Shown: in pieces, positions 8,408-60,770 of the stretch | Layout: each line of letters starts with the position of its first letter | How positions within the stretch are numbered: position 1 is the stretch's first letter | Assembly: GCA_003116975.1 (NCBI GenBank) | Contig: BGKB01000053.1 | Coordinates: 124,001 to 188,000, forward strand | Length of the DNA: 64,000 nt | Direction of reading: 5' to 3' | Source of the DNA: Aurantiochytrium sp. KH105 | Taxonomy: Eukaryota; Sar; Bigyra; Thraustochytrida; Thraustochytriidae | Notes under the pieces: model-generated | The model's database searches: none | What the model saw: only the letters and a program-made list of their open reading frames with translations | What the model was told of the DNA's origin: nothing | Position numbers and translations under genes: made by a program

Positions 8408-8523
8408 AATCGTCGCCGTAGACCCTCGGTCATGGAACGAACGAATAGCTAGCGATCTATCATTTTAAAACTCTCCCCGCAAAAGAAATCTTCACACACG
8501 ACGTGTCACTTCCACTTTCACGA

Positions 8524-8563
8524 ATGGAATGAAATGAAATGAATTGAAATGAAAGAAAATAAA
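8524..8563. repeat. GAAAT-type repeat ending in an AATAAA signal
   Basis: Imperfect GAAAT units run for about 35 bases and end in AATAAA at 8558-8563. This lies 150 bases past the SPT5 stop and is a plausible polyadenylation signal for SPT5. Confidence 0.55.
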
Positions 8564-8691
8564 AGGGCAGGAATTGCAAATCTTCTTTGTGATGGAGAAT
8601 TTGTAAATGTGCGCTTATCAGGGTTCTTCAAAGTATTAGATTCGCTTGCACACTTCATGATGTAGATTGCAATTGCGCGCGCGCGTTTAGG

Positions 8692-12129: not shown

Positions 12130-12880
12130 CGTCTTTTTCGTCGTCTTCGACTCGGCCGTTGCCCGCCCGCCGTGATCTTGTTCTCCTCTGCTCTGCTCCG
12201 TGCTTCCCTAAGTTGCAGTCTTCGACAGAAAGAACTCGTGGCCTCTACGTTTCCGAGTAGGGCCAAAACCGTCGCGGCGCGAAAAAGCGCAGCTGCGGCG
12301 CCGGGTTCTGGCTAGGCCTGCCTATCACGAGTGCCCGCGGACGGACGCTGGGACCGCCGCTGCCGCCTCGCGCCGGAACCCCGCCCGCCTGACCCCGACG
12401 AGGCTTGCCCGCCGCGCGGGCATCCAGCGATGAAGGAATGCTCGAGTGAGCGCGGGAGACTCCACCCGCATCCTCGCTCGGCCCGCGCTCGAGGCCCGTC
12501 GAGACAGCAGGTTCTGAAGTGCTAAAACTAGTTCTCGATACCGTGAAACTAGTTTGGATCTAGTCAGGTCTCCACACAGTGAAACGAGTATGGATCTAGT
12601 TCGTTAGGTTCCCACACCGTAAAACTAGTTTGGATCTAGTTAGCGGACTGCGCGGTGTGCACGGAGCCTTCCGTTGAGCCGCGTTGTCGCAGCAAAGGAA
12701 GCGAACAAACGAAACAAACCATCAGTCAGGCCCCGAGACCGAGACCGCGAGAGGAGAGTCCCTTCGCGCGGGCTCGCGTTGGCGGGAGGCCGGCGGGCGA
12801 GCGCGCGTGGTCGAGGCTGCGCAGGGCCAGGCCAGGCCTGCGAGGGAAGAGACGGTCGTTGGAAGGCGAAGTTGGACCCG
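12130..12880. promoter_or_regulatory. Head-to-head intergenic region between RMC1 and the giant gene
   Basis: The left part is GC-rich. An imperfect repeat cluster lies at 12524-12645 and a purine-rich leader reaches the giant gene ATG. The giant reading frame is open upstream to 12674 but has no ATG before 12881, so the extra frame is taken as 5' untranslated sequence. Confidence 0.55.
12524..12645. repeat. Imperfect direct repeats built on AAACTAGTTTGGATCTAG
   Basis: Three near-identical 19-20 base blocks start at 12545, 12581 and 12621, spaced 36 and 40 bases. A partial copy lies at 12524. Linkers share CCACAC(C/A)GT. The blocks combine ACTAGT (or a one-base variant) with GGATCTAG. They sit about 235-360 bases before the giant gene ATG, so they are candidate transcription factor sites; this role is inferred from position only. 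Confidence 0.8.
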
Positions 12881-15800
12881 ATGGAGAGGATGACGATGCC
12901 CTCGAACGGTAGCTCGTGCGAGTGCGGCGAGGACACGCGAGGGGCAGGGGCGACCAAACGCGACCACGCCCTGGCGACGCACAAGATGAACGTCGCGAAG
13001 CGAGAGGACAGGGAAAGGAGCATCTTTACCAATGCGCTCGAAAAGCAAGCGGCCCCGAGGCTGCGTCCCCAGGGCGTGGGACGGGGAAAACTGGGACACT
13101 TTGGAGGGTGGCGGGCCGGGACCCTGCTGCTGATGCTGGCGTTTGCGCTTGGATGCGAGGGCGCAGGGAGCCTCGATAACGGCCTGCTGTGGAGCGTGGA
13201 GCCCACGAGCAGCGCGTTTCTGGGCCAAGATGCCGCACCTGAGTGGCAGGCCGTTGAGAACACCACGGTGAGCTTTTTGTTGGACAAAGAATATACCGTG
13301 CGCGTCACGTACACGGCCAGTGTCATTGCAGACAAGGCCTACGAGCCAGGTGCAGACGCGCTCGGGTGGTCCGAGGACGATGACGTGCTCGGCATGCGCA
13401 TCGTCATTGATGGCGTTCCCTTTAGACAATCCGGATCACATGCAAATCCGCTCTCCTCGTTCGAGCAGAATCGCGCGAGCCTCATGGGCCACGCCGTGGC
13501 AGATTTGGGCCCAGGCGAACACACAGCGACGCTCGAGTGGCGCCGCTGGGGGTCGCGAGTACGCACGTGGAGCATTCGACCCACGCTCCTTCGCGGCCAA
13601 GGCGGATCGCGTTCCGTCACCGTCAAGGCTCGTCACAAATACTTTTATACGGCACAGCCTCTCACTGGGGCGCGCATTAGCAGCGCCTCCGACGATTGGG
13701 TCGACGTTCCCGACTGTACCATAAGCTTTACGCTTCCACGGGAATGGACGATGCACCTCTTGTACGCGATTCAGGTGAGGCCGCAATCTGCGCCAAATGC
13801 CGATGTGCTCCAGGAAGCCGATTTGCTCGGAACACGTCTGCTCATTGATGGTGTTGCATACCGAGAATCTGGCGCCATGTTCCGCACAATCTCAAGGACA
13901 TATCGATCCGCCGTTCTTAACGGGGATATTCTCGTTCCCCTTCCCGCGGGGCAACATGTGGTCAAGCTGCAGTGGCGCAAATGGGGTAACACCGTGCCTC
14001 TATGGCTTTCGCAGCCTTCCATGTTTGGTGGCTTTGTTTCGGGCCGTAGTCTCATTATTGAAGGCGAACACACGGCCGCAGTTCTCACGCGGTCACTCGA
14101 CAAGGCAACCCTCAGCAAGACGAAGATCGCCCTTCGCGACGCCTCCGCGGATGTGGACGGATGGTTCGACATTCCAGGAGCAAGCAACACCCTTGAGCTT
14201 GTTGGCGAAACGAGCACGGTCCATGTCAGCTTCTCGCTCACGACCTCACAACTTGGGAGACCCGATATGGACTATTGGACCTGGGAGCGATGGAGCGCGC
14301 TCTCTCTTCGTCTTGTCGTCAACGGCATGGTTGTACACGGCAAAGGCGCTTCTCAAGACGCCTTGGTGCGGATCACAGATACTATGCGCGGAAGCGCTTT
14401 GCTCAACATGCCTGCCGGCACACACGTCATCAAGCTTCAGTGGCGACAAGAGGGTGGTGACGCGGCAATATCTTGGCAAACGGCGCAAGAACTTCTCGAT
14501 GGCTTCGGAGGGGGCGCTGCGTTGGTTTCCGTATACCATGCCTTCAATCAGGCCCCAGAGGTCCACTATGAGCCACCAGACCAGGAAACGCAAGTGCAGC
14601 TCATTCAGCAGGGCGAAAATATTACTCTTGAATTGCTCGAAGATGGTTCGCGGCGTATTGCTGGCTTTCGTGTGTCTGACAAGGACGCGGCTTTGAGCCC
14701 AGACTCTGTCTTCGCAGTCACTATTGAGGCCAACAATGGTGTCATTACGCTTGACAATGCGCAAATCAAAGACGTATCGTTTGCGACTGGAACTGGTGAT
14801 CGCGATCAGGTCGTCGTCTTCACGGGCGGACTGGACGAGGTGAACCTTGCCTTAGCAAGCTTCGTGTACCAAGGTCATCTCGACTGGCATGGCGAGGACA
14901 CAATCACGGTGTCAGTTAGTGATCAGGGAAACGCCGGACTCGGCCTTGGCGGCGCGCAGACGGCATCGCGTTCGATTCGTCTTTCTGTCGAAGCCGTCAA
15001 TGACGCGCCTTCCTTGTCCATCCCGAGCGACCAGACCACCGATGAGGATGAGACCATCGCAATCTATGGCATTACCGTTCATGATGTGGACATGGACTAC
15101 TACTGGGCGTTTGAGAATTCTGGCGGTGCCGAACCCATTTTTCAGGTTTCTCTTTCGGTTGCTGGGGGTACCATCTCCTTGGCGACAACGCAAGGACTGA
15201 ATTTTGTTTTGGGAAGCGGCGTCGGTGATAGGTCCATGACAGTCACTGGCACCTTGCAGGCCCTGAACGCGGCACTGCACGAAATTAGATATCGTGGAGA
15301 TCCAGACTCGAATTCTCAAGTATTGCAGGAAAGTCTCGTGATTCTCGTGAGCGATCTCGGCGTGGGTTCCCCAGAAAACGCAATCAGCGAGCTCACGGAT
15401 GAGGTTATCATTCCCATTGATGTGCTTTCCGTCAACGACCCGCCCACCGTGGTCATTCCTGCTGCTACAGCATTGCGTCTCGACGGATACGCGATTTCAG
15501 ACATGGATGTTTCAAGTCACACCGCTGACGGTATTCGCGAGTACACGGTCAACATTTTCGTCACGAGCGGCATTGCTACTGTGACACTTGGCAGTGCCGC
15601 GGGTCTCGCTTTCGCCAAGGGTTCTGGAGCAAACGATATCGAGATGGAGTTTTCCGGCACTTTGCAAGACATCAACGCCGGCCTTGGAAGCCTCGTCTAC
15701 GCAAGGCCATCGGGCGTCAATGGAGGCGACGATGTACGACTTACGATCGACTCGGGCGCTCAGGGAGAGCGCCCTTCTATTCGTTTCATTGACGTTATGA

Positions 15801-18800
15801 TGGACCTTGACGCGGGCGCAACGCCTTCTCTCGAGCAGGTGTCCCCGGAGCGTGCTTGCGTCGATCCCGTGCAGAACAACTCGGTGACCCTTTCTGCGCC
15901 TGTCCTTCTCGACCAACTTTTGCTGGCTGCGAGCGATAACGCCACGGGGTGGTGGTGCCAATTTGGAGGCCCTGAAGCGCGCACCCCGGTTGTACTGTCG
16001 CGTGAAACTCAGCAACTACTCTGCGAGGCCATGTCAAGTAACGCCTCTTCTTCGGAAGGTGGCGCGACGTTTGTGCGTCTGACGAATGGGGTCGATCGGT
16101 GGTCTAACGCTGTTCCCTTTGTGTTCTTCGCTGCGCCGCAAATTGCTACCGTCTTTCCTTCAACAATTGGACTTGCCGGCGCGGACGCAGTTCATGTTCA
16201 CGGTGCAAACTTTGGGTTCGAGGATGGAAGCCTCGAGTGCGCCTTTTCGATTGACAGCTCAACTGCATATGCTCCGGCCAACGTCATCTCAAGCTCTCAC
16301 GCTTGGTGTGTCGTTCCGCCCGGGGCGATTTCCGGGCCAGGCGAGGTCGATCTATCTCTCGTCGTCAATCGGCAGCAAGTGTTCTTCTGGGAAGACGGGG
16401 TGCTCGATGTCGTCGAGGCGGCCGTCATTCACGACTCCGAGACGCAGCTTTGGGGTACGCGTCGGGGGGGATACGAGGTTTCGTTTCGAGGTGCAAACCT
16501 TGAGACTTTTGCAGATGGCCTTGAGTGTGTCTTTGGTGCAGAGGCTGAGCGCAGCACAGTCTATGTGGCTTCTCCAATCCAAGCATCGTGCTTGGTGCCT
16601 TCTATGCTGGAAGCCAAAACGATGCCCTTGCGAATTCTTCTTCACAACAGGACATTGGCGAGCCTCAATTTCACGTCTTTTGAGCCTCTCGCGATTTCTG
16701 GTCTCGTCCCACGCCAGGGTCCGCTCGGCCAAGAGACCAACGTCCGCGTATCTGTCAGCAAAGGATCATTCTTGGCGTTCTCACAGTCTGAGCTCGCAGC
16801 GATCGGCGATACAGGGGAGTGCACCTTTCACTTCGACCGGGAATCGATCACAGTGGAGGGCCTCGTTGTCAAAGAGAGCAGCAGCACGATTTATCTCGAT
16901 TGCACTGCGCCTAGCCGGTCCGAAGAAGGCTTGGCAAGTGTCAGTGCAAAGCTCAACGGGGCGGAAATTATCGAAGGCACTGAGGCAAGTCGGTACTTTT
17001 TTCGCGCAGACCCCATCCTCCTGTATGCTTTGCCACGAGTCGTCATAGCCTCTCAAAGCAATGCAAGTACGCAGTCTCTCATGATCTACGGAAGTGGTTT
17101 GCATCGTTCGATCGGATTCGAGGACGACTCTTATCGAACAGGCTGCCTGTTTGCGCATGGCAGCCGCGAGACGCGTACACAGGCCACGTGGATCTCGGAA
17201 GCTGCCGTTCGCTGCATCATGCCCGCGTCTTGGGTCTTCAGCAGCGCTCTTGTGCAGACTGAGACTGTGTCCGTTGGCCTCGTTGGAAAATTTGTAAATG
17301 TGGACCCAATTTCTATCGAATTGTATCGGCAGCCCAGCGTAGATTCCGTGAGTCCGACAACGGTTCTTCCAGGCACTTCGATTGTCAATCTTACCGGTGT
17401 GGGCTTGGGCGATATTCCGGGTCTTTTCTGCGCGTTTGGGACTGCCGGAAGTCTTGTCTACGAATCGTGTTCGCCGCTGACAAGCGACGTTGTTTCCTGT
17501 CCCGTCCCCATTGCAGCCGACCCCAGCGATCTCAGTCTTTCCATTTCTGTCGATCTCGTCAAGTGGATTGCCACACCATTTGTGTTGGACGCTGGATCAA
17601 CCACACCAATTTTTCTGGACATATCTCCAGGGCATGGCGCCATCGGCGACAATGAGACAAGCGAGATCCGAATTCAAGCTGCTGCGGGAGCGGCGCAGAA
17701 TTGGTCGTCTGCACAGTGTCGCTATGGCCAGGATGATGCGTTGCCGGCGCTTGGATTCGACGCATCGACGAGCGAACTTCGTTGCCCTTTTCCAGCTGCT
17801 ATGAAGAGCCCTGGGCTTTACCCCGTCTATATCCTAGGTTTAGTTGATTCAAGTCCTTCCATCGACACGGGTCTTGTGTTTGCGCTGCACAGGCCGCTGC
17901 GCGTACTCAAGGTGTTTCCGCGTGTCATTCCTGTAGGAGGCGGCCGCCCCGTACAACTCGTCGTTGCCAACGCTGTCGCTTCCTTATTCTTCTCGTGCGT
18001 CTTTCGCGAACCCATTTCTGGCATAGTGCACGTGGTAAATGCGCAGCTTGTGGAGTCAAACCTTGCCGAGTGTCTGTCGCCAGCGATTTTGGCAAGCACA
18101 TCCGGCGTAGAGGTCTTTGTCTCGCATCGGAACGAGCTCGCTTCCCTACCTGTAGGCCAATGCATTGACGAGAACGCGTGCACGATTGACTTTGTCACGG
18201 AGCCAACGATTGAGACGCTTCTCCCAGCATATATTGTAGCTGGAGCTGGCACAGAGGCGGTCATTGACGCGCGTCTTCAGCATCCAGTCCTGGACGTTGA
18301 GAGTCCTTCGACAGTCCTGTGCAGACTTTCGATTGGCAACGTGACTGCAACTACGCAAGCAGAAATCAGCGGTGTCGATGCATTGAGATGCCATATACCA
18401 GTTTCTCTACGGTCCGCGTTAAGTCTTTGGCCTGGCCACGCAATCAGCCTTAGCCTTTCGGTGGATGATGGGGAAACCTATGGAGGGCCCGTAGCCGGTC
18501 CCGTCCTGTTGCAACCTCTTCAGGTGGAAGAATTGGTGCCAGACCGCTGGTTTTCCCCTGTGGGAGAGCTCTCGTCAATTCTTGTCTCTGGTGCAAACGC
18601 GAGCAGTCTCCCACCTGCTGTCGTGAGCTTCCTCCGCTGTGTTTTCATGGACATATCGGGCGCTGATGTAGAAGAGACCGCCGCTTGGCCTTCTCTTGCG
18701 TCAACCGGGGTCGTGTGTGAAGTGCCATATGAGCTCGCATCAGGCTCTTCCGGTCAGATTGATCTACGCTATGTCCTGGAGAGTGGCGAGTCGCGCTCTG

Positions 18801-36800: not shown

Positions 36801-39800
36801 GTCCGACGAGTGATGGAGCGTTGGAAGCAATCCCGTGCCCTTCTGGCGCGCACTGCCCAGGCGTGGGCAATCTAAAGCCTGTGGACTGTTTTCCAGGAAC
36901 GTTCAATCGCTTTGAAGGACAGTCGAACTGCACTGTGTGCCCTGTTGGGCATGTCTGCCCGGGCTGGGGCCGCACAGAGCCAGAGATTTGCCCTGCAGGT
37001 TTCGTGTGCTATACTGAGGGTCTCTCGACGCCGATCATTCAGTGTCCAGCAGGATACTTTTGCGAGGAAGGCACGCTGACGCTAATTCGTCCGGACCACG
37101 TCGACGCTGCAGATGTGGCGTGCATGCCTGAACCTGCCGACGCCGATGGAGCAGCACTCAGTCCGCAGGTTGACACACCTTGCTTGGAGCACAATCTCAC
37201 ACTCGTCCGCGCCGAGCTGCTCGACATGCTAGCAAGTACTTTGTCGCCGACCTACCTGCAAGTGGAGATGGCTGCATTGCGACCCTTGCCATGCGCTCCG
37301 GGCACCTTTTGCTTGGGGGGTGTTGCGCACAACACCACAATTGATTGGGTACCAGACACACCAGAAGGCGCAGAGGCGCCACAAACCTGCACAGAAGGCG
37401 CGTATTGCGAATGGGCGAGCTCTACCCCGGGCGGCACAGGGGCGTGCCATCGCGGACATTACTGTCCCCCAGGCTCTGACTACCCAACGCAAGCACCGAT
37501 CGGTACGATGTCCACCGACACTGGTTCGATTGCTCCGACGCTATGCTTTCCTGGAACGTATGCGCCTCAGAATTCAAGTACAGTCTGCCGCGTATGTCCT
37601 GCTGGCTTCGCTTGCCAGGGGTACGGCACGTACGAGCCTACTATTTGTTCTGCAGGTACCTACCGATCGCTTGCGGATGATATCACTTGCAAGCTGTGTC
37701 CTATGGGTACATGGAATCAGATGCGCGGGGCTACAGACATTTCGCTTTGCGAGCCGTGTCCAAGTTCCCGAGTGTGCGGTGTAGAGGCCATGTCGAATCT
37801 GACGCAAAGCACGGCTTGTCCTTCGGGCCACGTGTGCCCTCTTGGAACGGATTCTTCGGCCCAATTCGAACATCAGGTCCCAGCGGGATACTATACAAAC
37901 GAGGCCACCATTCCGGAGGACGTCTTTTCCAACATTTGTCCGAGTGGGAACATTTGCGAGCGCGGGACTAAAGGCTATCTGCGGGAGCGAAACAAGTGCT
38001 CGGCAGGCTACTTTTGCCCGCCGGGTACAGCCTCATCCGAAAGTATGAGGACTCGGTGCCCTCGAGGTACAACAACGATCTCTGGCTCTGCAAATCTCAC
38101 GTCCTGCGAGATTGCTGGCGTTTCTGTCTGCGACAAGGAACTAGGCACACGGTCTCACGGAACTTGGGGCTGGTACACGCAGAACAAGATCTACGTTCCC
38201 CAGTTCACGTACACTACAATAAGTGGGACGGAGGAGACCTTTGACTCCACCGTGGGGTCATCTTTGCTGGGTAACATTGAAGCTGAGGTGGAGGTCGTGC
38301 AGCGAGTGCTCATTGTTGACGAGAGTGCATCTTCTCCACTGTGGCGAAACGATAGCGTCCACGTGGAGCGCATCTGTCCTGTTCAAGCTCCGGCCGTGGG
38401 TGGCACAATGCTCACGGTAATTGGTCGCAACTTTTTTGACGTTGCCACATTGGTGTGCAAGTTTTCCGTGGTTGATCACGAAAGCGCTGCTTTTGTCCTC
38501 GAGAATGGTCTTCCTGGCATCGACCCGCCCTTGCGGGGTGAGAACGTGCTGCACGTTCCCGGTGTATATGAGAGCTCAACGCGGGTACGATGCCGTTTGC
38601 CGAGTCGCGCGACTTTCGGCGGCGAGGCTACGGCGGCGTACATTAGCGTCTCGGTCTCCAATGATGGAGTCTTTTATGGCGAAACGAGTGCCTCACTTGC
38701 ATTTGCCGAAGGCACCACGGACCTTTCATCGGGCGAGACAACAACCTTGGACCTGAACCGCGTAGAAGCCGAGCACCTGGACTGCATTGGAGATGCCGTT
38801 GACCTGAGCCCGCTTAATAAAGAGTTCTCGACGAGCTATCCGCAAACCTCGAGACGTCTTTTGGTGGTCGATGGTGTCAAGCAGAGCATTCCAACATCGC
38901 GTGCGGAGTACGAGGAGATTAAGGAAGAGATGACGAGCTCCTGGTGGACATCGAGGGAGGACGAACTGGTCAGCTGGGACGATTTTGCAACTCGGATCGA
39001 GAGATTCCAGCTCGAGGAGGGCGTACGCGATGCAGAGCGATCGTGGTTCATGCTTCCCATCCTCAACAAGGCAACAATTACCTTTGACTTTGCTCATCTT
39101 CCCGATGATCTTGTGTACGGAGAGCACTATCGACTCGCCATCTTCGTAGCAAATTCAACATGCGAGGAGGAGCGATGTGACTCGGATCGCGTGCGCTACA
39201 CGGTCTCAACTCAAGCAGAGTGCGCCGAGGACCCAAATTGCGCCATTGGCCAGGAGCTCGAAGTATACCCGTGCCACCGTCCGATCGATCTAAGCCCGTG
39301 GTTTTTGAGTGACGAGGTCGACAAGGCTTCCGAATTTGCCATTACACTCGTTGCTCTAGAAGACGTCTTATTCCGGGTGGAAGTGCACATCCTTCACGGA
39401 ATGTACAGCTCGTTGACTCCGCAGTTCGAAGACACGGCAGTGGTTCAGGTCTATGGCCCAGAACGCAGCAACTCGACGCGGCACATTGAGTCGGCGTCGT
39501 ATGAACGTCGCCGGCTGAGCCCTGTGGTAAGCGCTGCAGAGTCGGAGGTTTCTCAAGAGTACATCTTTGGTGCAATTTTTCGGCGCGATACGTTGACAAG
39601 CGTCTCCCCACCGCTGAATATGCCACCCCGCTACGAGACTACGACCAAAGGACGTGTTCTTGTTGGCTTCAATAATACTGTTGGGGACCAGACGCACGTT
39701 CTTGAGGGCTACGACACGCTTTCGACAGATCAGCAATGGTGGAATCCACCTGACGTCGACGTGAGCACGACGCGCGACATGATTCTCAAGTATCGCGAAA

Positions 39801-42800
39801 TTTTCCATGAGATGGACACCACAGCAGCAGACGAGGACCTAAAGTTCACGTTTCAAAAGGTGGTGCTTCCGTATCTCCCATTTTTCTCGAGCTGTCGGGG
39901 TTTCGATTCGTACATGACGATCTGGGACTTGCTCGAGTCCTCTGAGTGTGAGCTTCCGCTCTTTGACGAGGACGGAAATCGACTTCCTACAGACTGGGAA
40001 CGCTATAGCTACGCCCCGCTCCCGGACTACGACAACATTCGTGTCGTCAATCCGTACTCATTCTTGGAAAGCGAGCCCATTGCAGACTATTGCACGAGAG
40101 CAATCACGTGCGAATATGAGGAAGATTTGACCTCGCGCGACCTCACACCTCGCTGGTTCGAGGTGGCGTCGGGTACAACACTATTGGAGTTCATCTGGGA
40201 GCCTCTGACTGTGGAGCAATTTCTTCTCGGTGGTCGATTCGTTGACCAGTTTGTGGAAGAGGGCTCTACGGATTGGCTCATTCCTCTCGAGGTCAATCGC
40301 GACGCGGCAGATCTCATGTCGACAGAGTGTGGCCGGCAGTGCTTTCCGCGCTCTGCGACTTTGCAAATGCACTACTACCAAGTGAACAAGGATTTGAAGA
40401 GACTCATCTACATTGCTCTGGTGCTCGACGACTTTGATTATGACGAGACGAGGACCGATTTTCAACTCAATGTGGAGTTTCGGGCATTGGGATACTACGA
40501 TCTGATTGTCAACTTTGCTTTCCAGCGCGAGGTGTTTATCAACCTCTTTGTCTTTATTGGCATTTTCACCGTTCTGATTGCCGGCATGTTCTGGGCGATC
40601 AATCGTGTGACAACGCATCTAGAGCGCCCCCCTCGCTTCCGCTTCTTTTCATACATGGCACTGACAACGCCAGGGCCTCTCGTCGGCGTAGGCCTGACGG
40701 TGCTGCCCCTCTCGTGCGTGCTCGGTTTGTGCTGGCTGGTGCTCGAGGGAGGCGAAACCATTCGAGAACTGAGTCTGATGATGTTTCCTCTGACGATCGA
40801 GAATGCCGCCAATCTGACGGCTGTGCAGCTGGCCGAGGCGGAAGCCGAGGCCAAAGAGGAATATCTTGCCGAGGCCTTCTTTTTGGAAACGTGGCCAAAG
40901 CACTATATGGAGTCGGACGTATTGCCTGAAGAGGTCGATGTGACGCGTTCGGGACGCATGGGCCTGGCGTTTGTGATGGTGGCACTCTACATTCTACTTT
41001 TGAGTGTACGCGCATTCGTCCCGCGTCGGGTTTCGATCGAGGAGCAACTTTACGAAGATACACGAGACCACCACACACGGGAGCGAAGCATTTGGAAACC
41101 GACAATGTGGAAGCGGAGTAACATGGTTGCGACATCGCTGATGCTGACGGTATTTCTCATCTTTTTGATCGAATTTTCCTACTGGGATCAATATGGCTCG
41201 ATCATTTGGTACTTTATCCTCGTCATGAAGATCGTGTCGATCATCTACGACATTTGGGTGGAGGGTCAGCTGAAAGAATCGCTTTTGATTTGCCCGCACA
41301 ACGTTGCATTTGGCCTTGTGCAGGGGCTTGTGACGTTTGGCGCCAACAACTTTCTGGACATGGTGGTAGCGTACGTCATCAACAATGGGCTGATGATTCT
41401 CTCTCGTGTCTTTTGGGATCCTGGCAAGGACCACTTTTTCTTTGTGGTGCGGCAACGCGTTCTTGAGACCAAAGACTTTGTTCGTCGACAGTTTCACTTG
41501 GGTCGAACGCTAGACCAACAGCTTGCTGAGCTGGACGAATTGGCTGCCAAGAAGAAGCTTGCAGAGGATATGGAGAAGGCCGTGAACAAGGGGCTGCCGC
41601 CTCCGCCGACGAACGTCAAGGGCAAGAGAGAGGTTGAGCAGCAGTTTGAGTCATCCGAAACAGTGGAACCCATCCTGAACGCGTACATGTCTTTCTCCAC
41701 CGAGGTGCTTGCTTTATACTTTCAACCGTTCCTCATTGTCATTCTTATGGTCTTTCGCGACCAGATTGGCCTGCCCAATCTGTACGGCATTCGTAACCAG
41801 GATATGGAGTACTACCTCTGGTTTTCTATAATTCTTATTGGGTTCCAGACCATGGCCGACATCTTCATCCTGCAGTCGCAAGAGCTCTTTCACGGGTGGA
41901 AGATCTACGACTACCTTACGTATACGCGGTATCGCTTCATTCAGCGAGAGCATCGCTGGAAGGGATTCGAGGATACGCTTGATGAGTGCATTGAGGAAAC
42001 CCTGCGAACCGTGGACCAGTTGTGCTTTAGCAGCCAATACTATATGATTTGCTGCACGTATGCAGCCGGCATCATCATTATGGTACTTGGCATCGAGATT
42101 ATGTTGCGCACGGATTACAATGCTTTTGGTGACCCTGCGCTGCTGATCATTGTGCCATACGCAGTTCTCTCTTGCATGTTTGTACGGCGATGCGCCGTAC
42201 GTGCAGCGGATAAGATTCGTCTGTGGAGCTTGCGACACGAGAATACGGCATGGCACACCGCTTTGGACGAAGATGACATGGGCGCTCCGCGCTGGGACGA
42301 GCTCGACAAGATAAAGGGTGCATCTCACGAGGCGTACTTGATGAACCAAAAAATCACGAGTGAAACCTTTCGACACAAGTTTCTCGACTACAACCGCCCG
42401 TGGCTGGTGGCGCAGCTGCCGAACATCCTTACGCCGCGCACGCTGCGACGCTCGCGGCCGTACTTGACTGCGCAGCTGACCAAAATTTTAGGCAGCGTTA
42501 ATCCTGATGTCTCTTCGGACGACGAGGACGACGACGGCCGGCCCAAGTTCGGCCCCGTCACGCTTACGAATGCGTCGCGGAACATTATCAGACTTTGGCT
42601 TGCGCAAGCACGGCGGCGGCGCACCCTTCGCGCTGCGGTCCAAGCGCTCATTAATCGGGCGCGTAAATCGGAGTGCGAGCAGTGTCTCAGCCGCAAGCAG
42701 CTTCAGGTCGAGCTTTTGACGCCCATTGAGAAACTCGGAGATGCTTTTGAAGCCCAGTACCCGAGCGAGGAGTTCGATCAGGTCGCGTGGAAGAATTTCT

Positions 42801-43318
42801 TCCAAAAGCACGCCAAGCTGCGCACCTTGTGCTTGCCCTGTGTCCAGCGGCATCGCGACGAGCTCAAGCTTGGTGGCGGCGACTTTGGCTTGGGAGGAGG
42901 TCGTGCACGAGGAGGGCCCGGGGGCGTCGGGCCTGCGGGACCTGGTGATTTTCCGGGAGACGCGCCGGCCAAGCCAGCAATCTTCGGACCTGTTGTTCTC
43001 TCGGCAGCATCACGCGCGATCATGATGCACTGGCTTCACAAAGCTCAGGCGTCTGCACGGAAACGAGGCGTCTCGCTGGGCATCCGCGAAGCTGAGATTA
43101 GTGATGATGACGAGGACGACGACAAGCTTGCCAACGCGACGGCCTTTGCAGGTCGGCGCATGCAACTGAGCCCCGCATCGGTGGCGATTATGCGTCGCTG
43201 GCTCAAGATGGGCCGCGAACGAATGGCCGCGGAGGGCCGTTTGCCAAGCGGTGGTGGACTCGTGCGCAAGAGGAAAAAGAACAAAAAGAAGGCCAAGGGT
43301 GGCATCTTTGGGTTTTAG
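12881..43318 (+). CDS. Giant IPT/TIG-repeat polytopic membrane protein, about 10,145 aa, single exon
   Basis: One frame of about 30.4 kb with no stop. The ATG at 12881 is the first in frame and is followed by a hydrophobic signal/anchor at residues 74-94. Architecture in order: three Trp-rich lectin-like repeats (105-555); three cadherin-like repeats ending in VNDAP/VNDPP-type linkers (590-985); about 66 IPT/TIG units (985-7725), each with a P-x-x-G-x-x-x-GGT-like turn, a C-x-F-G strand and a C-x-x-P strand; Cys-rich GCC2/GCC3 repeats (7727-8410); one further TIG (about 8490-8615); a pre-membrane domain; about ten membrane segments (9217-9770); and a charged tail with three copies of a short motif. 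TIG units are Ig-like folds common in surface receptors such as plexins and fibrocystin. The topology suggests a huge ectodomain on a multipass anchor, plausibly for adhesion or sensing. The exact function is unknown and I name no orthologue. Confidence 0.95.
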   Translation: MERMTMPSNGSSCECGEDTRGAGATKRDHALATHKMNVAKREDRERSIFTNALEKQAAPRLRPQGVGRGKLGHFGGWRAGTLLLMLAFALGCEGAGSLDNGLLWSVEPTSSAFLGQDAAPEWQAVENTTVSFLLDKEYTVRVTYTASVIADKAYEPGADALGWSEDDDVLGMRIVIDGVPFRQSGSHANPLSSFEQNRASLMGHAVADLGPGEHTATLEWRRWGSRVRTWSIRPTLLRGQGGSRSVTVKARHKYFYTAQPLTGARISSASDDWVDVPDCTISFTLPREWTMHLLYAIQVRPQSAPNADVLQEADLLGTRLLIDGVAYRESGAMFRTISRTYRSAVLNGDILVPLPAGQHVVKLQWRKWGNTVPLWLSQPSMFGGFVSGRSLIIEGEHTAAVLTRSLDKATLSKTKIALRDASADVDGWFDIPGASNTLELVGETSTVHVSFSLTTSQLGRPDMDYWTWERWSALSLRLVVNGMVVHGKGASQDALVRITDTMRGSALLNMPAGTHVIKLQWRQEGGDAAISWQTAQELLDGFGGGAALVSVYHAFNQAPEVHYEPPDQETQVQLIQQGENITLELLEDGSRRIAGFRVSDKDAALSPDSVFAVTIEANNGVITLDNAQIKDVSFATGTGDRDQVVVFTGGLDEVNLALASFVYQGHLDWHGEDTITVSVSDQGNAGLGLGGAQTASRSIRLSVEAVNDAPSLSIPSDQTTDEDETIAIYGITVHDVDMDYYWAFENSGGAEPIFQVSLSVAGGTISLATTQGLNFVLGSGVGDRSMTVTGTLQALNAALHEIRYRGDPDSNSQVLQESLVILVSDLGVGSPENAISELTDEVIIPIDVLSVNDPPTVVIPAATALRLDGYAISDMDVSSHTADGIREYTVNIFVTSGIATVTLGSAAGLAFAKGSGANDIEMEFSGTLQDINAGLGSLVYARPSGVNGGDDVRLTIDSGAQGERPSIRFIDVMMDLDAGATPSLEQVSPERACVDPVQNNSVTLSAPVLLDQLLLAASDNATGWWCQFGGPEARTPVVLSRETQQLLCEAMSSNASSSEGGATFVRLTNGVDRWSNAVPFVFFAAPQIATVFPSTIGLAGADAVHVHGANFGFEDGSLECAFSIDSSTAYAPANVISSSHAWCVVPPGAISGPGEVDLSLVVNRQQVFFWEDGVLDVVEAAVIHDSETQLWGTRRGGYEVSFRGANLETFADGLECVFGAEAERSTVYVASPIQASCLVPSMLEAKTMPLRILLHNRTLASLNFTSFEPLAISGLVPRQGPLGQETNVRVSVSKGSFLAFSQSELAAIGDTGECTFHFDRESITVEGLVVKESSSTIYLDCTAPSRSEEGLASVSAKLNGAEIIEGTEASRYFFRADPILLYALPRVVIASQSNASTQSLMIYGSGLHRSIGFEDDSYRTGCLFAHGSRETRTQATWISEAAVRCIMPASWVFSSALVQTETVSVGLVGKFVNVDPISIELYRQPSVDSVSPTTVLPGTSIVNLTGVGLGDIPGLFCAFGTAGSLVYESCSPLTSDVVSCPVPIAADPSDLSLSISVDLVKWIATPFVLDAGSTTPIFLDISPGHGAIGDNETSEIRIQAAAGAAQNWSSAQCRYGQDDALPALGFDASTSELRCPFPAAMKSPGLYPVYILGLVDSSPSIDTGLVFALHRPLRVLKVFPRVIPVGGGRPVQLVVANAVASLFFSCVFREPISGIVHVVNAQLVESNLAECLSPAILASTSGVEVFVSHRNELASLPVGQCIDENACTIDFVTEPTIETLLPAYIVAGAGTEAVIDARLQHPVLDVESPSTVLCRLSIGNVTATTQAEISGVDALRCHIPVSLRSALSLWPGHAISLSLSVDDGETYGGPVAGPVLLQPLQVEELVPDRWFSPVGELSSILVSGANASSLPPAVVSFLRCVFMDISGADVEETAAWPSLASTGVVCEVPYELASGSSGQIDLRYVLESGESRSVLAATPPFFRVTPMPVVTHTEPSEGSPAGGTAVLVHGFGMASLSEPTDLQCRFGSTIVPGRLLSAHLVECIAPPGPAGEEVGLTLSVNGGAQFFCSNLEQACSFAYLEQALAIESIEPRLGWPGTSVVVRGHGLHLGTVDSCLFRVPGQSWASHIASRAVVLEDGSRVSCTIPTSGPLLPLLRDSTEAHLRLEVALWTKAGERAESDLMMDLIEIPRLSLASPAFGPSAGRTSIHVHVSANLSALTIPDLVCEVGGIQAPFQIVNESTLTCISPALDLVEASELSFDAGEASVAVRVALNSVNYVVAQGRFHFIPTIVLESAAPTEVVVGLTEAIHVASSSSLHGLWRVLAQVGFDAVVCQFTSEGGGSMVRAPIFVQSGMSAIGCQIPSTWNHSDIFDEEEWWTLHFENGETGEALSTRLAIQMIATYPSQLTVTPGAVSEGGSITVSGSSLRHTASMQCGFGDPLLAVSEASFDAESGTLRCLVPARIANQIARGSVTAQETPVRVSLNGHDFSALKESPIVQVVKSRGDSQTSTDAAEIRLDSLEPRVGDLAGGTTISVHGKGFLLFETSLRDLDPRCIFFSDDARANFAEVSKRAIIVDDSQMTCTTPNHGVAGDVNVRVAFWENDMGHYGVVSYTFAPRPEVFRVQPSSVEEGTASVSFRVFAHGLIGSPSLRCHVGDDVIVPGYLSSDGHSVLCSAVQMPQLPWGASASSLVVSLSNSANEITQDPLPAQTIFLHAPFTLSGLAPSHLTSGIGEVLEIRGENFVPASDIACLFGETNFHVQAQYVSSETLTCELPPHLLLPGVYEVYLSMNGGSSTLRAGSGIEMDVTVLEPASSMSLQASDPSSGPASGGTLLHVPLDTSTLLGVPVACSFRLPEDPGMAVTVDAETIHANEEVTCITPDGTLAWITEQFPQHAEVEVQVVATGQVLATTAFTFVADVVILDIRGPSAISTRGGASVVVRGTGFDQAGVVPVCSFAVDGVEDWNASVTQGTLVPGSLDENFHLVCPVPPAPDSALGATPLLSISMNGGADFSSPLPAGFLLAEPAVTHSVHPEAIILDALNQVLWPNALIVNGENFTETSAQVCYFEGASPAFVEAFAVNSTQVICEMPLSWQPTFDTIEGSSVSVLANDGESIDASTGVPLQIWPFPHLSGISPRVVSPEGGTQISLQLPSPDQYDGELWSCVFRCGPEDTFVGYTQALSNWTCAMPSLPDLQRGLGVASPCSLGLASVQEDESTLAFESNRERIPLWAVDVPQLDAGLRLRRKFVDLSFNHSRFIAVSLETDPGLLHFGAHVEVHCRFTLSSDATASYSVIGTIGADWDALQCPLPGLDFVKEQLSLGVWDFAQDGLHLDVSFNGVEYSSSSLNITFLPSSSLSFSSSTEEAISTRTLWGARGARTEVVLALDATTRDLAATLLSPLEDYFSLSCRFGGKEAVAASFDMDIGALVCPVPSSLFATRQEPNSNLSVEVSLLTDPGSFVDTGLTVRAPSNPFRIVDLRPIAGPLEGGTTITLRMEGAGLAEAQATLLNTFLVCVFTLPDGFEVESNATASMKEEEVTSVVCDTPEVSMPQDAFVSVRLLHTETQRDVLVQEPSAGIAVFRYAALPQVFAVEPSLLQIQSTEVATSRVLTVQGADFVSDGSNQTRCAWFKASMEGELGIEGALLTPATVLSSTVLQCAVPAELPMYEQSYSFRLHVSGNGVDLSASSAILSVVPEMSAAALRPSMGSQTGGTVISVLGRNFLANLPYICDFYAEDGSSFVAREAAVFESSSTLRCRTPHFASPGTIAVRLHAYLPDGSLSWVAQDVPLLFEALPHLVASAATPAWASPDEAFVLRLELSSGTADSLRSRLGAETSGTQFIVRAQVGDVYGTCQASLLRDANILLHCEVPACTQGKCAKPSAQVSLQLSDDEDLEPVFLQHAGSVHVLRTPQAALHRGKDIQIVSALSSTNVDVRGAGFADVETLGCALCDENLERCVTSLQVLRRSTSVVSCEIPQWASAREDLAGLSTAARLYVRNDMRALQSSDLSQSLVGANFVTVKIIGPVSLLEMDPLQPTPGQLLRITVSKVPSDVPVSCDFGGVQSAAMILSEHLISCVVPMRLGEAAVAQEDLSVRLLFGAAGEARRVASEGSVIRLRGPRSLLSSETDIAHATLEPPSGPTGGGTRITFEIGDLEFEEPVKGVQCQFTRESGAMNATLVEAEVDLLASVISCVTPSVGEAGIARVAVLARGSGLALASGSFVFRPIPFIARALTKIVASPALPGSTVDLLGSGFSSGPLHCVYSSHPCTMGTEAATHVAADGEVYSATRASCGVPQDLHDRLGVERPVFICVSIDHGRTLAASQAEIDLAPLWDIDHVEPNAVFRGTAEKPTFFRVKGRNFPAQTQLYCIFDDENAIVEPASYVNQSLVLCRLPRELLQDARETSQYVLGISSRDNQYESLSRTQVLQVHDLPQIDFVGLGKCSEPPMLCGLFSVVTSERVVLNKLRCQTTQGSTLYSEVRNETEGYFACALPVKETTTGLRVSLNDSVQWFAVHIPLEAWQPAPTVDSMSPLLLPKEDASLVTFHGDGFSMDKSYSCAFQGRAGEAAAIVESATSVRCVVPEASDETEAAHALVEVKLHQKTPFRELYSGQAAMFHQPRIGSTEPWEVPLGKAWAPIVIAGSGFFPSADLACRVESPFRGARVLPATYLNASAVRCTLPVIPETRMGEFLRVGIAENGESFVHASSSIKIVPGVQGVSISSTEILVQRATGELSFELHVPSSDSFRFDAASDDPYCALTTFDDDGQELLHELNTEILSSLRVRCFGIWSHSHLSDQSSLQASVEFAPRFPAQSVQRVLNEINVLLAPVLTTSLTSRRIQVGDESARFRFTGRGFRENTTYVCLLSRQDVEVHSSWSFTEQAVVHGKNEVSCSLQALEEPGSYRIALAHEQDGKPIYTLDGSFHATIKAGPAMRLHAIEPSFAMDKSDEAVKIHGSGFEGSASTFCDWSSEDGRFRVSTRAAVLSSLLLECASPNWDPALPPGAARDIKLRVRSDAGDTREATSFTLLAAPVVTRIEPHAGPMSGGTPVRIWGSFYAPGDSITRPDVFCVFEGHEDPIPATLLSLREVICVAPAHVQGDASDVVRVSVTYGPGQSHGPASSAMYTFVEDLTIDSMYPLMGTVHGATSLRIRGHHFQTHDLLSCAFTFPDGDRYVTMGAYESETQIRCVTPRVANGGNARVSVSQNGVDFVALESDYFSFHAPVTILEVFPSQGPASGETLVQITGTNFPRSPTMVCGFNYARVSATWINANLVECTSPTVTSTGRVSLRLYTNGVDEIPVGHFVFTPPVTVERVSPRVGPAQGGTEIAFVLSDTRTGQTDAQEPVELDDLHCEFVTSLYTAHVPANENGDRTWSCKVPPKRQLGNEITVETRLVAREDQVLHTFAYEYHPEMFVRKVWPQAGNRRAGQTTLQVIGEGFVKALDDETYTCEFENNGELHATSARWLGTSLLACTVPRELGPGTHSIRVSMHDGQIPERVANDQELSFQVLDGLDIDRFAPHSGPFSGGTIVSIHGQNFGQVATGEAMCRFGDLGDAKASVVGNQEIRCAVPPAGWDVEDNEVAVRLSISVDREHFQHVGEFWYRHVPQLVHLDPEEGPSIGGTAVAISGAHLSGQGANLTCKFGDQLVQGEVLSSGEVRCVSPPAEDLTEGRVLVRLSSNGGADLSSNALVFTYTSPPQILGMDPHIGPIQGGTRLRVQGHAFRQDYPLECVFSMGNASSASEVHQIHAAAQFVSSSEISCLVPQIQGAATSVSLGVRARGQPLPRVCSAHELVFIPYEMNSDGPLSPTRGSAYGGTQILVPLVTSIDEAQPQVRCRFGSTRSSPGRIIHMSLRSFGYRRMQIACISPLWSLSEGESEREVPLFVSLNAGVDFHHFVGHEFTFVSPSADVEMWPLLGPASGGTRLKFYNVGAKAGVALACRFRSLGDPAGPVKEAGVETVEVSETSGTRASLVQECITPPASQDTVAIVELVEENSLLLLHRGRFVYQSALHLTPDGISPSSIARFSDRTVFRFRGEGFHVMNTLICSFFDPITLQEVARSAAHLETENSASCALIPPATTPWDRLEALDVCISGNGGADKVCERIQLVEPLEVLDVSPEHGRVSGGSVVNVNFVWGGSSRSFAQGFAFVCRFGQVVVEAAVVNSTPAGSIQQLACVAPAVLAAETVDFAISYDGVTFSQHAEKQSFRYFDDLEGSKVFRVTPETGRSSGNEEIRLSGIDHPSQVTTCGFVAFPDGARPLAQVAPHAFDEDAVYCMTPAIEPEVDTEQQPTRLVVSYDMGRQWSSSSRGPMFTVYAVPTVQAVKPESVFAETNSWVDVYGSGFAEMSRADRRLTCLFEDPLQAGSQATLSSVASIISRHHVRCQTPTSLAAGKVYLVRITNTNQGQDLFGFAELKVLPQLELWSVSPALVASHFAQPHFVRLSMVHTNQLADSPHRYALSCEFESTNGWRSEVPAAVEEEMDSVTCRLPFVPQAEDEVWPRALRVKLRSSLVPGASISIPHEGLFLEVFEPLDISSIEPSIGQLRGGTEVRLSLDAPLHPRLDGQIYCSFDWIGGDNPLEHMNVAQRAMTSRATFDESLTVATCLTPDFAADDDDLGRSLANRTVWVGLSMREGSAGYVQQQWSLNRKVFLATQQAFLRSLHPSRGNVYGGTLVTLRGQGLPGSGQLVCKFGDTHQVLARRRSASVVECVSPSFADEGPQTVRVGLFLDGDTAETFVEYDTLLRPLEFHFEDLPRVQSVSPQRVSVLGGDLISLVGVNFPFDSSRALQVWCRFGGVLRVPATVLGTTEATCRTPSNVASLGNFSTPFLVSVELSSGNGHEFASIGEDGPVLVEVVDSVTIESISPRFGSVYGGTALQVVGTNFYGEKVCTFQLNGEENEVLQVAAVVRSSSLLECIVPPRTFDRVKYALVTLDSVASQETLRFDYVREPALHDVSPGAFHVLGGATLRIEGSDFRQEAETLRCEFTDVPTSATASDAALSGSAMTEIVQATFVSSERVECEVPASHVSVTTTLVRVTNNGQEFSNALSLHRWWRATFDQGPHPAGGSVEGGTQTRLVLSERTARSLQSGHVVCMIGDIITRAIVNVASRVVSCEIPPSAGQTDQVVPISISFDAGHHFSATGFAYAYLLAPEIVQIYPENGDFVGGSEVEIDLASVDPLFTRFRLLNPAGESGDLCKVTSTVGNTRHIVCSLAAAEDDSVTAQLYHLQAEGETGEVLRAPIYRLRHAPRPIATRLEPSAAYTQGEVEITVIGHDFVNSDALACKFGTDSDLVPGYYVNSELVRCTAPAHAVGSVIVEVTNNGVDFSDSALVLNYINAPQIFSLRPAHGPMDGGTWVEITGIDMHLFSSTSAICKFGDAESFTMEVVNSTLVRCLSPPGPARALSASVPLELSFVDGHGLGAFSTFGERFTYLQRPTVKGVFPAQGPTDGGTEVRIAVRHLHIAAARDANSFWCKFGNAESTPARLVASHETRGDWGQDADISVLACSSPPRHDDLASNAQVLLQISQNGGVDFTSSSTVLFAYTGGARASITSILPRSGPAQAGGTVLVLRGTGFQDVSSLACRAGDSGLVAARFVSDTEIHCRMPPARRASDLSEGVVVSVTNNGVDFVSSGEEFVYYSDPSVHDVVPRRVLSEGRVPLMVRGHNFVNSTSLSCLFGEDFKVPATFISSRLLSCEMPTLRPQDPDQLLVRVSNNGHDLTTSQIFLSVQRGALPGSYSQQGSLLSAPNGTIVERPGESNFTLCSPGSFQPRSGQTSCLECPIGYFCPDFGLSKPIACLEGFVCDRLGLRAPYDACPAGHFCARGTKTTSLSAFQTSAKAHGQTPVRPYFEGLTEDMWTRSAISGRLQLIWASLLPEWSISRRAAAATGFSSLGHGAGPGYVLNGNVASDVDVVFRDAPVSESPQVCPAGTFCRSGVASASPQTLNFSTPQQCHDGFFCPPGSSVPSGSGACPSGHYCPTSDGALEAIPCPSGAHCPGVGNLKPVDCFPGTFNRFEGQSNCTVCPVGHVCPGWGRTEPEICPAGFVCYTEGLSTPIIQCPAGYFCEEGTLTLIRPDHVDAADVACMPEPADADGAALSPQVDTPCLEHNLTLVRAELLDMLASTLSPTYLQVEMAALRPLPCAPGTFCLGGVAHNTTIDWVPDTPEGAEAPQTCTEGAYCEWASSTPGGTGACHRGHYCPPGSDYPTQAPIGTMSTDTGSIAPTLCFPGTYAPQNSSTVCRVCPAGFACQGYGTYEPTICSAGTYRSLADDITCKLCPMGTWNQMRGATDISLCEPCPSSRVCGVEAMSNLTQSTACPSGHVCPLGTDSSAQFEHQVPAGYYTNEATIPEDVFSNICPSGNICERGTKGYLRERNKCSAGYFCPPGTASSESMRTRCPRGTTTISGSANLTSCEIAGVSVCDKELGTRSHGTWGWYTQNKIYVPQFTYTTISGTEETFDSTVGSSLLGNIEAEVEVVQRVLIVDESASSPLWRNDSVHVERICPVQAPAVGGTMLTVIGRNFFDVATLVCKFSVVDHESAAFVLENGLPGIDPPLRGENVLHVPGVYESSTRVRCRLPSRATFGGEATAAYISVSVSNDGVFYGETSASLAFAEGTTDLSSGETTTLDLNRVEAEHLDCIGDAVDLSPLNKEFSTSYPQTSRRLLVVDGVKQSIPTSRAEYEEIKEEMTSSWWTSREDELVSWDDFATRIERFQLEEGVRDAERSWFMLPILNKATITFDFAHLPDDLVYGEHYRLAIFVANSTCEEERCDSDRVRYTVSTQAECAEDPNCAIGQELEVYPCHRPIDLSPWFLSDEVDKASEFAITLVALEDVLFRVEVHILHGMYSSLTPQFEDTAVVQVYGPERSNSTRHIESASYERRRLSPVVSAAESEVSQEYIFGAIFRRDTLTSVSPPLNMPPRYETTTKGRVLVGFNNTVGDQTHVLEGYDTLSTDQQWWNPPDVDVSTTRDMILKYREIFHEMDTTAADEDLKFTFQKVVLPYLPFFSSCRGFDSYMTIWDLLESSECELPLFDEDGNRLPTDWERYSYAPLPDYDNIRVVNPYSFLESEPIADYCTRAITCEYEEDLTSRDLTPRWFEVASGTTLLEFIWEPLTVEQFLLGGRFVDQFVEEGSTDWLIPLEVNRDAADLMSTECGRQCFPRSATLQMHYYQVNKDLKRLIYIALVLDDFDYDETRTDFQLNVEFRALGYYDLIVNFAFQREVFINLFVFIGIFTVLIAGMFWAINRVTTHLERPPRFRFFSYMALTTPGPLVGVGLTVLPLSCVLGLCWLVLEGGETIRELSLMMFPLTIENAANLTAVQLAEAEAEAKEEYLAEAFFLETWPKHYMESDVLPEEVDVTRSGRMGLAFVMVALYILLLSVRAFVPRRVSIEEQLYEDTRDHHTRERSIWKPTMWKRSNMVATSLMLTVFLIFLIEFSYWDQYGSIIWYFILVMKIVSIIYDIWVEGQLKESLLICPHNVAFGLVQGLVTFGANNFLDMVVAYVINNGLMILSRVFWDPGKDHFFFVVRQRVLETKDFVRRQFHLGRTLDQQLAELDELAAKKKLAEDMEKAVNKGLPPPPTNVKGKREVEQQFESSETVEPILNAYMSFSTEVLALYFQPFLIVILMVFRDQIGLPNLYGIRNQDMEYYLWFSIILIGFQTMADIFILQSQELFHGWKIYDYLTYTRYRFIQREHRWKGFEDTLDECIEETLRTVDQLCFSSQYYMICCTYAAGIIIMVLGIEIMLRTDYNAFGDPALLIIVPYAVLSCMFVRRCAVRAADKIRLWSLRHENTAWHTALDEDDMGAPRWDELDKIKGASHEAYLMNQKITSETFRHKFLDYNRPWLVAQLPNILTPRTLRRSRPYLTAQLTKILGSVNPDVSSDDEDDDGRPKFGPVTLTNASRNIIRLWLAQARRRRTLRAAVQALINRARKSECEQCLSRKQLQVELLTPIEKLGDAFEAQYPSEEFDQVAWKNFFQKHAKLRTLCLPCVQRHRDELKLGGGDFGLGGGRARGGPGGVGPAGPGDFPGDAPAKPAIFGPVVLSAASRAIMMHWLHKAQASARKRGVSLGIREAEISDDDEDDDKLANATAFAGRRMQLSPASVAIMRRWLKMGRERMAAEGRLPSGGGLVRKRKKNKKKAKGGIFGF
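13192..14540 (+). repeat. Three lectin-like repeats of about 145 residues in the giant protein
   Basis: Copies at about 13192-13610, 13633-14050 and 14062-14530 share the same skeleton. Each has an SFxL strand, a segment reading RIVIDGVPFRQSG, RLLIDGVAYRESG or RLVVNGMVVHGKG, then a G-x-H turn followed by LEWRRWG, LQWRKWG or LQWRQEG. The pattern suggests beta-sandwich carbohydrate-binding or PA14-like modules; this is a structural guess from strand pattern. Confidence 0.75.
14640..15825 (+). repeat. Three cadherin-like repeats in the giant protein
   Basis: Units contain the signature G-x-GDR or GANDxxM, then an F/V-x-G-x-L-x-x-x-N-A-A-L-like helix, then Y-x-G/P, and linkers VNDAPSLSI and VNDPPTVVI. 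This pattern is typical of cadherin-like repeats in very large bacterial adhesins and some protist surface proteins. Asp residues at the unit boundaries could bind calcium. Confidence 0.75.
15826..36060 (+). repeat. Array of about 66 IPT/TIG units in the giant protein
   Basis: By eye I count 66 consecutive units averaging about 102 residues, plus one after the Cys-rich region. Early units are divergent. Units from about 28000 onward are closer to consensus, for example SPRFGSVYGGTALQVVGTNF and DPHIGPIQGGTRLRVQGHAF. Most have the paired Cys of a C-x-F(G) strand and an R/T-C-x-x-P strand, so each unit probably holds one disulfide. The count is approximate because some unit borders are weak. Confidence 0.9.
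36061..38110 (+). repeat. Cys-rich GCC2/GCC3 (ephrin-receptor-like) region in the giant protein
   Basis: Dense CP-x-G-x-x-C repeats occur, for example CPIGYFCPDFG, CPAGHFCARGT, CPSGHYCPT, CPVGHVCPGWG and CPAGYFCEEGT. Interruptions of up to about 80 residues occur at about 36350-36630 and 37090-37280. Such repeats form small disulfide-knotted modules, usually stalk-like, in receptor ectodomains. Confidence 0.88.
40531..42190 (+). other. Polytopic membrane region of the giant protein
   Basis: About ten to eleven hydrophobic segments can be read, starting near 40531 (INLFVFIGIFTVLIAGMFWA), 40676, 40960, 41122, 41199, 41278 (possibly two), 41705, 41813, 42041 and 42138. Acidic and basic loops separate them. 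A long loop between 41440 and 41690 is Lys/Glu-rich and probably cytoplasmic. I do not match it to a named channel or transporter family. Confidence 0.8.
42541..43216 (+). repeat. Triplicated short helical motif in the cytoplasmic tail of the giant protein
   Basis: Three copies read VTLTNASRNIIRLWLAQAR (about 42547-42606), VVLSAASRAIMMHWLHKAQ (about 42988-43047) and MQLSPASVAIMRRWLKMGRE (about 43160-43219). The shared pattern is L-(T/S)-x-A-S-x-x-I-(I/M)-x-x-W-L-x-x-(A/G)-(R/Q). Acidic runs (DDEDDD) come before the first and third copies. It is probably a docking helix; no known motif name fits. Confidence 0.8.
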
Positions 43319-60758: not shown

Positions 60759-60770
60759 ATGCAGTCCACC

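Follow-up and report, generated by a model that had tools for sequence, protein, structure and literature searches.

An uninterrupted 30.4-kb reading frame in Aurantiochytrium sp. KH105 and the giant TIG-domain protein, probably multi-pass, that it is predicted to encode

The thraustochytrid Aurantiochytrium sp. KH105 carries an open reading frame of about 30.4 kb in a stretch of 64,000 nucleotides that we call the window (assembly GCA_003116975.1, contig BGKB01000053.1, here C53, positions 124,001 to 188,000 of the forward strand). Judged from its sequence and that of its second haplotype, this frame is one continuous, real gene under selection along its length. Its predicted product is a TIG-domain protein that we regard, with moderate confidence, as a membrane-anchored cell-surface protein of about 1.09 MDa, an adhesive or contact-sensing stalk receptor. 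Positions are those of the window, unless another contig is named.

The frame runs on the plus strand from an ATG at 12881 to a TAG at 43316-43318 and comprises 10,145 codons and the stop without any interruption; it is free of stops from just after an in-frame TAG at 12641. Each of the other five frames of 12881-43318 contains between 175 and 355 stops, and the probability of a chance open frame of such length at the given base composition corresponds to a log10 P of about -169. For the product of the frame starting at 12881, a mass of 1.094 MDa and an isoelectric point of 4.9 are predicted, in agreement with the mass above 1 MDa that had been expected in the original prediction, which was made from the letters and open frames of the window. 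When six other long window frames served as the reference for codon usage, r values were 0.89-0.98 in ten 3,000-base blocks and 0.67 in the short last block. Two aspects weaken this comparison: codon usage alone separates the giant frame poorly from the other two plus-strand frames, which reach 0.91, and in one of the 11 blocks, that at 18881, another plus-strand frame scores slightly higher (0.896 vs 0.891).

A search of the genome (76.0 Mb in 367 contigs) identified a second copy on contig C179, where the open frame has 10,212 residues. Both the giant gene (12611-43473, 96.3% identity) and the neighbouring genes (3150-12599, 95.1% identity) can be aligned between these contigs, and PCNA is also present twice in the genome, so that the two copies are most simply interpreted as two haplotypes. 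The break between both alignments (12599/12611) coincides with a 40-base repeat in 2.7 copies (12540-12641), immediately ahead of the giant frame. Within 12881-43318, 30,438 bases are aligned with 1,088 mismatches and not a single insertion or deletion (indel). Three adjoining noncoding stretches show 5, 4, and 2 indels in 276, 737, and 153 aligned bases, respectively (11 in 1,166), nine of which are not multiples of three, and of the neighbouring genes SPT5 has none in 2,964 bases and RMC1 has one, of 12 bases, in 3,438. The ratio of non-synonymous to synonymous changes (dN/dS) between haplotypes is 0.177 overall and varies from 0.009 to 0.422 across 21 blocks of up to 500 codons; third-position differences outnumber both first- and second-position differences in 34 of 34 blocks of 300 codons. 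Five blocks covering 29381-36880 have values of 0.12-0.42, and the last five, from 36881 onwards, have values of 0.009, 0.056, 0.046, 0.028, and 0.046. The absence of indels, together with a dN/dS below 0.43 in all 21 blocks, indicates one continuous frame under selection along its length.

When the C-terminal part was used as query against the genome at an expectation value (E) up to 0.001, two genes were found, each on two haplotypes: the window gene and a larger paralogue on contigs C36 and C17. The giant window frame is thus not the largest of the genome, since the paralogue frame extends over about 37 kb. The paralogue haplotypes are 96.5% identical, and 815 of their 1,248 mismatches are at third positions. 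Of the indels between them, four have lengths divisible by three; the remaining four, all small, do not, and these are confined to the first 180 bases, ahead of the first ATG. Window gene and paralogue share 22-30% identity in BLAST segments and 31-39% in C-terminal pieces; even in this diverged gene, stalk, membrane module, and tail are joined in one frame on both haplotypes. The original prediction of a single continuous coding frame of about 30.4 kb and about 10,145 residues therefore holds, as the frame is open from end to end and is kept on the second haplotype. That it is neither a chance frame nor a merge of genes is likewise borne out by the stops in the other frames, the lack of haplotype indels, the low dN/dS, and the paralogue being organized as one frame. 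The sequence comparisons further argue that it is not a pseudogene or, on the haplotype evidence, a gene with hidden introns.

Coding exons of such size and continuity are rare. Among the genome matches listed for Ephrin_rec_like, none of 87 has an internal stop, and the corresponding open frames range from 633 to 10,224 residues. The window genes encoding SPT5, RMC1, THOC1, and a sulfatase each match Pfam along the greater part of a single long frame. Long single frames are therefore a common feature here, and consequently it is the size, not the single exon, that is remarkable, which upholds one half of the earlier description of an exceptional uninterrupted exon and removes the other.

The largest part of the predicted protein is an array of TIG domains. 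PF01833 (TIG) was detected over the Pfam cut-off in five of seven overlapping protein pieces (best values 5.4e-62 and 7e-142) and below it in one further piece, while the last piece, containing the membrane module and the tail, had no match; PF17960 (TIG_plexin) was over its cut-off in three pieces (58.1, 35.1, and 84.3 bits). Our own TIG model, which gave no matches in 12 control sequences, detected 59 domains in the giant protein and 62 in the C36 paralogue. A profile of 13 window TIG domains matched plexin-A1 (2.9e-23) and the hepatocyte growth factor receptor (2.8e-10) in the PDB. The repeats that had been noticed running through the frame are thus a TIG array, found by Pfam and by our model alike. 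Tandem Repeats Finder found no DNA-level array inside 12881-43318, and the stalk repeats therefore exist at the protein level. In 696 local alignments of at least 60 residues, no two TIG domains of the protein exceed 46% identity; this value and the lack of a DNA-level array rule out a recent tandem growth of the array. An older growth or shuffling is likely, because for 26 of the 59 domains the best match is another domain of this protein and because the 13 reciprocal best pairs with the C36 paralogue are not in order.

Downstream of the stalk, a cysteine-rich stretch and a membrane-proximal region lead to nine segments at residues 9208-9768 that are hydrophobic by hydropathy and align with the corresponding part of the C36 paralogue, which has eleven. 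The giant protein is probably a multi-pass membrane protein with about nine transmembrane segments. The original prediction had raised the secretion of the product; a purely secreted protein is unlikely, since the frame ends in these hydrophobic segments and a charged tail, which together with the cysteine-rich stretch form the most constrained part. When the membrane-proximal part, the membrane module, the tail, and two pieces of the C36 protein were compared with Pfam at E up to 5, no match over the cut-off was obtained; the only two matches, EPV_E5 (0.17) and ARM_KNTC1_1st (0.057), are far below it and were discarded. A sequence comparison of the C-terminal part with the PDB at E up to 1 gave no match, and a single-sequence structure model of the transmembrane core was uninformative (mean local confidence score, pLDDT, 41.2).

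The tail motif L[ST]xASxxIxxxWL is present three times in each paralogue, with one copy of altered spacing in the C36 gene. The pattern, written after the motifs had been seen, had a mean of 0.0 matches in 200 shuffles of the last 650 residues of each paralogue. Beyond the two paralogous genes, a single match was found in the genome (E 0.046), interrupted by three internal stops. Searches with the C-terminal part yielded no confirmed relatives in viral_contigs (0 and 64 pattern matches), genome_contigs (9 and 103), or phages. Apart from this genome, the collections searched cover viruses, prokaryotes, and phages, a range from which confinement of the family to this genome does not follow, and relatives may well exist in other protists.

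At the N-terminus, the true start is ATG 12881 or ATG 12986, and it may therefore lie 35 codons downstream of the first. The frame upstream of 12881 is not conserved between haplotypes. In codons 12881-12985, 7 of 35 differ between haplotypes (5 non-synonymous, 2 synonymous) and one further codon is gapped; in codons 12986-13165, 6 of 60 differ (4 non-synonymous, 2 synonymous). The haplotype comparison thus favours neither start. A signal-peptide-like segment exceeds the hydropathy threshold in the C179 copy and is below it in the window copy. It is followed by three tandem domains with 8 non-synonymous and 23 synonymous haplotype differences in 463 codons, for which a genome search at E up to 0.001 matched only the giant gene and its allele. 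Foldseek results for a model of this head were mixed, the best being a streptococcal pilus domain (E 9.9e-4), followed by many viral haemagglutinins with TM-scores of about 0.3. A TNF/C1q majority in a further comparison is the one result used, as a hint from which a C1q/TNF-like fold of the N-terminal domains can be proposed tentatively. A profile of the three domains produced five weak tRNA methyltransferase matches in the PDB (best E 0.048), which we consider due to chance, and window 12986-27880 had no match by sequence to the PDB at E up to 0.01. The features of the gene and the location of its paralogue are listed in Table 1.

Table 1. Predicted features of the giant gene and location of the larger paralogue.
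Feature	Position	Strand	Basis or remark
Whole coding frame, single exon	12881..43318	+	10,145 codons plus TAG, about 1.09 MDa
Alternative start ATG	12986..12988	+	35 codons later; protein of 10,110 residues
Hydrophobic signal-peptide-like segment	13118..13165	+	Translation, hydropathy
Three tandem beta-domains, tentative C1q/TNF-like jelly rolls	13166..14554	+	BclA_C match below cut-off, Foldseek of head model
Cadherin-like / bacterial immunoglobulin (Ig)-like region, weak	14555..15931	+	Cadherin_4 24.1 bits vs cut-off 25.1
Stalk, 58 TIG (IPT) Ig-like domains; gaps may hide more	15932..36040	+	Pfam, own model, PDB profile
Cysteine-rich stretch with Ephrin_rec_like modules, borders approximate	36074..38200	+	PF07699 6e-9; match 37634-37750; cysteine counts
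59th TIG domain, set off from the array by the cysteine-rich stretch	38360..38692	+	Own model; Pfam TIG 21.4 bits vs cut-off 20.9
Membrane-proximal region common to the C36 paralogue, no Pfam family	38693..40501	+	Sequence alignment
C-terminal membrane module, nine hydrophobic segments, no Pfam family	40502..42184	+	Hydropathy; dN/dS 0.03-0.05
Tail, presumably cytoplasmic	42185..43315	+	Sequence
Acidic serine clusters in tail	42512-42535 and 43100-43123	+	Sequence
Tail motif copy 1, L[ST]xASxxIxxxWL	42554..42637	+	Motif pattern
Tail motif copy 2, L[ST]xASxxIxxxWL	42989..43072	+	Motif pattern
Tail motif copy 3, L[ST]xASxxIxxxWL	43157..43240	+	Motif pattern
Larger paralogue	C36:224580-261605	+	Single open frame of 12,341 residues
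Larger paralogue, second haplotype	C17:695241-732251	-	Single open frame of 12,336 residues

The interpretation as a surface protein is based on the domain order, in which a head is followed by an Ig-like stalk, a cysteine-rich collar, a multi-pass anchor, and a tail with repeated motifs. The N-terminal domains would form a binding head outside the cell. With about 4 nm for each Ig-like domain, the 59 TIG domains would form a stalk of about 200 to 250 nm, holding the head off the membrane or bridging to a substrate or another cell. This stalk would be anchored by the transmembrane module, which may relay force or ligand signals into the cell; cytoskeletal or signalling partners may dock at the repeated tail motif. 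That the stalk evolves faster and that collar, module, and tail are constrained would suit a stalk in which changes are tolerated and inner parts that work with fixed partners. The most likely use would be adhesion or contact sensing, for example during settlement on surfaces. According to PMC12221091, thraustochytrids build an ectoplasmic network during surface settlement and have flagellated zoospores; the main text of that source has no occurrence of TIG, ephrin, or cadherin. The two paralogues, with the same inner part and different heads, could constitute a receptor pair whose different ligands are read by one machinery.

Other explanations were weighed against this stalk receptor. Adhesion G-protein-coupled receptors and polycystin-1 are cleaved proteins, and the giant chain might similarly be cleaved, so that a TIG stalk is released, a multi-pass membrane protein is left as a separate product, and the mature megadalton form is short-lived. 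The cysteine-rich and membrane-proximal region would be suitably placed, between the stalk and the membrane module, and constraint shifts sharply there, from a dN/dS of 0.12-0.42 (29381-36880) to 0.01-0.06 in the next five blocks. However, 3241 and 9911 are the only residues with an RX[KR]R site, H[LFI][ST] is absent beyond residue 7700, and the paralogue keeps both halves in one frame, which leads us to consider cleavage unlikely. A polycystin-like design as a mechanosensitive or ligand-gated channel or transporter, in which the stalk would serve as gating tether, appears improbable to a similar degree: a large ectodomain followed by about nine hydrophobic segments in a strongly constrained part would suit it, but PKD_channel, PLAT, and REJ were not matched at E up to 0.01 anywhere in the protein, the membrane module had no match over the cut-off at E up to 5, and structure prediction was uninformative. 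Somewhat less likely still, and suggested by analogy, is a role on the zoospore, where the protein would coat or anchor flagellar hairs or other structures on the ciliary surface. Fibrocystin-L sits on stereocilia and TIG arrays occur in fibrocystins, which together with the flagellated zoospores of thraustochytrids (PMC12221091) could favour such a role, but no PA14, G8, or beta-helix match was obtained with Pfam at E up to 0.01.

The remaining alternatives concern the gene itself. Use of the frame in pieces, through internal promoters or through introns of 3n length within the frame, is very improbable: the third-position excess in all 34 blocks and the absence of indels leave little room for noncoding sequence, although internal promoters would not be affected by this argument. 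An assembly artefact or a pseudogene is hardly credible, since a second contig carries this frame too (96.3% identity), the flanking genes are conserved, and a dN/dS of 0.177 shows purifying selection.

We also compared the stalk receptor with known TIG-containing and giant proteins, scoring Pfam matches of the whole protein at E up to 0.01. Plexins have few TIG domains and are defined by Sema, PSI, and cytoplasmic RasGAP domains. The giant protein resembles plexins and the MET/HGF receptor in its TIG domains, including TIG_plexin matches over the cut-off, but it has no Sema, PSI, RasGAP, or kinase match, and it has 59 TIG domains and several hydrophobic segments instead of one transmembrane helix. 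Fibrocystin and fibrocystin-L (PKHD1, PKHD1L1) are large surface proteins with a TIG array, about half as long as the giant protein, with G8, PA14, and beta-helix regions beside TIG; the giant protein differs in lacking matches to these three and in its multi-pass C-terminus. Polycystin-1 combines a stalk of Ig-like repeats with many transmembrane segments, and polycystins are defined by PKD_channel/polycystin and PLAT domains, whereas the giant protein has no PKD, REJ, PLAT, or PKD_channel match, nor do its membrane-proximal part, membrane module, and tail match polycystin families at E up to 5. Judged by these Pfam features, the protein belongs to the TIG-domain proteins and is neither a plexin nor a fibrocystin nor a polycystin. 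The C36/C17 paralogue shares the TIG array, the membrane module, and the tail motifs, but has a Laminin_G_3 head (1.4e-25) in place of the three jelly-roll-like domains. Protist genes far larger than the window gene are known, namely the PKZILLAs. PKZILLA-1 and -2 of Prymnesium parvum are giant polyketide synthase genes (PMC12300183), whereas the window gene is predicted to encode a surface protein. No description of the giant protein was found in the titles and abstract openings of the papers listed on TIG and fibrocystin, giant protist genes including PKZILLA, thraustochytrid genomes, and the longest proteins or exons.

Further observations concern the genome and the rest of the window. In PMC5924542, KH105 is described as diploid, with 76.7 Mb of scaffolds (text; 86.0 in a table) and 54.4% G+C, and 4.7 exons per gene are given for one modelling stage, a value that poorly fits an intron-poor genome. 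Eight further window frames, chosen by length or position, were compared with Pfam; six had matches (SPT5, RMC1, THOC1, a sulfatase, a Cullin-binding protein, and an FHA protein) and two had none. The sulfatase (49510-51717, minus strand) carries C-terminal PAN domains in one frame. A 1,222-residue frame (56379-60047, minus strand) and a 1,080-residue frame running off the window (60759-63998, plus strand) have no Pfam match at E up to 0.01, and a long array of 5-base units is located at 1427-1628. Additional long single-frame TIG proteins of about 4,400-4,700 residues are encoded on C71/C25, C90/C49/C128/C134, and C47/C33, besides smaller ones; those of C71 and C90 have several hydrophobic segments, and that of C47 presumably begins with Kelch-like repeats, judging from the look of its sequence. 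The genome also contains a polyunsaturated fatty acid (PUFA)-synthase-like gene that reaches 930 bits to omega_3_PfaA over model positions 6-1035, short of the cut-off of 1,010 bits; a match next to it lies on the opposite strand, an arrangement that recalls thraustochytrids. Of 14 control genomes, 11 have weaker omega_3_PfaA matches as well. What is apparently a giant single-frame polyketide synthase is present on two haplotypes, as open frames of 5,708 residues (C27, about 303609-314666) and 5,831 residues (C56, about 295285-306354) containing several matches to the ketosynthase region.

More tentatively, the window gene and its paralogue might represent a small family of megadalton, intron-free surface receptors in which heads can be exchanged on stalks of about sixty TIG domains, all borne by a conserved membrane-and-tail module. 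If so, the family would serve this lineage as its machinery for contact or attachment; its membrane module would be of a new kind, and its repeated tail motif would be new as well. The 30-kb coding exon and its 37-kb sister offer a natural test of the length of mRNA and polypeptide that a small cell makes without splicing, and a megadalton multi-domain chain tests folding and threading into the endoplasmic reticulum. If the protein is indeed a surface receptor, it would be a concrete candidate for how thraustochytrids recognise and hold surfaces.
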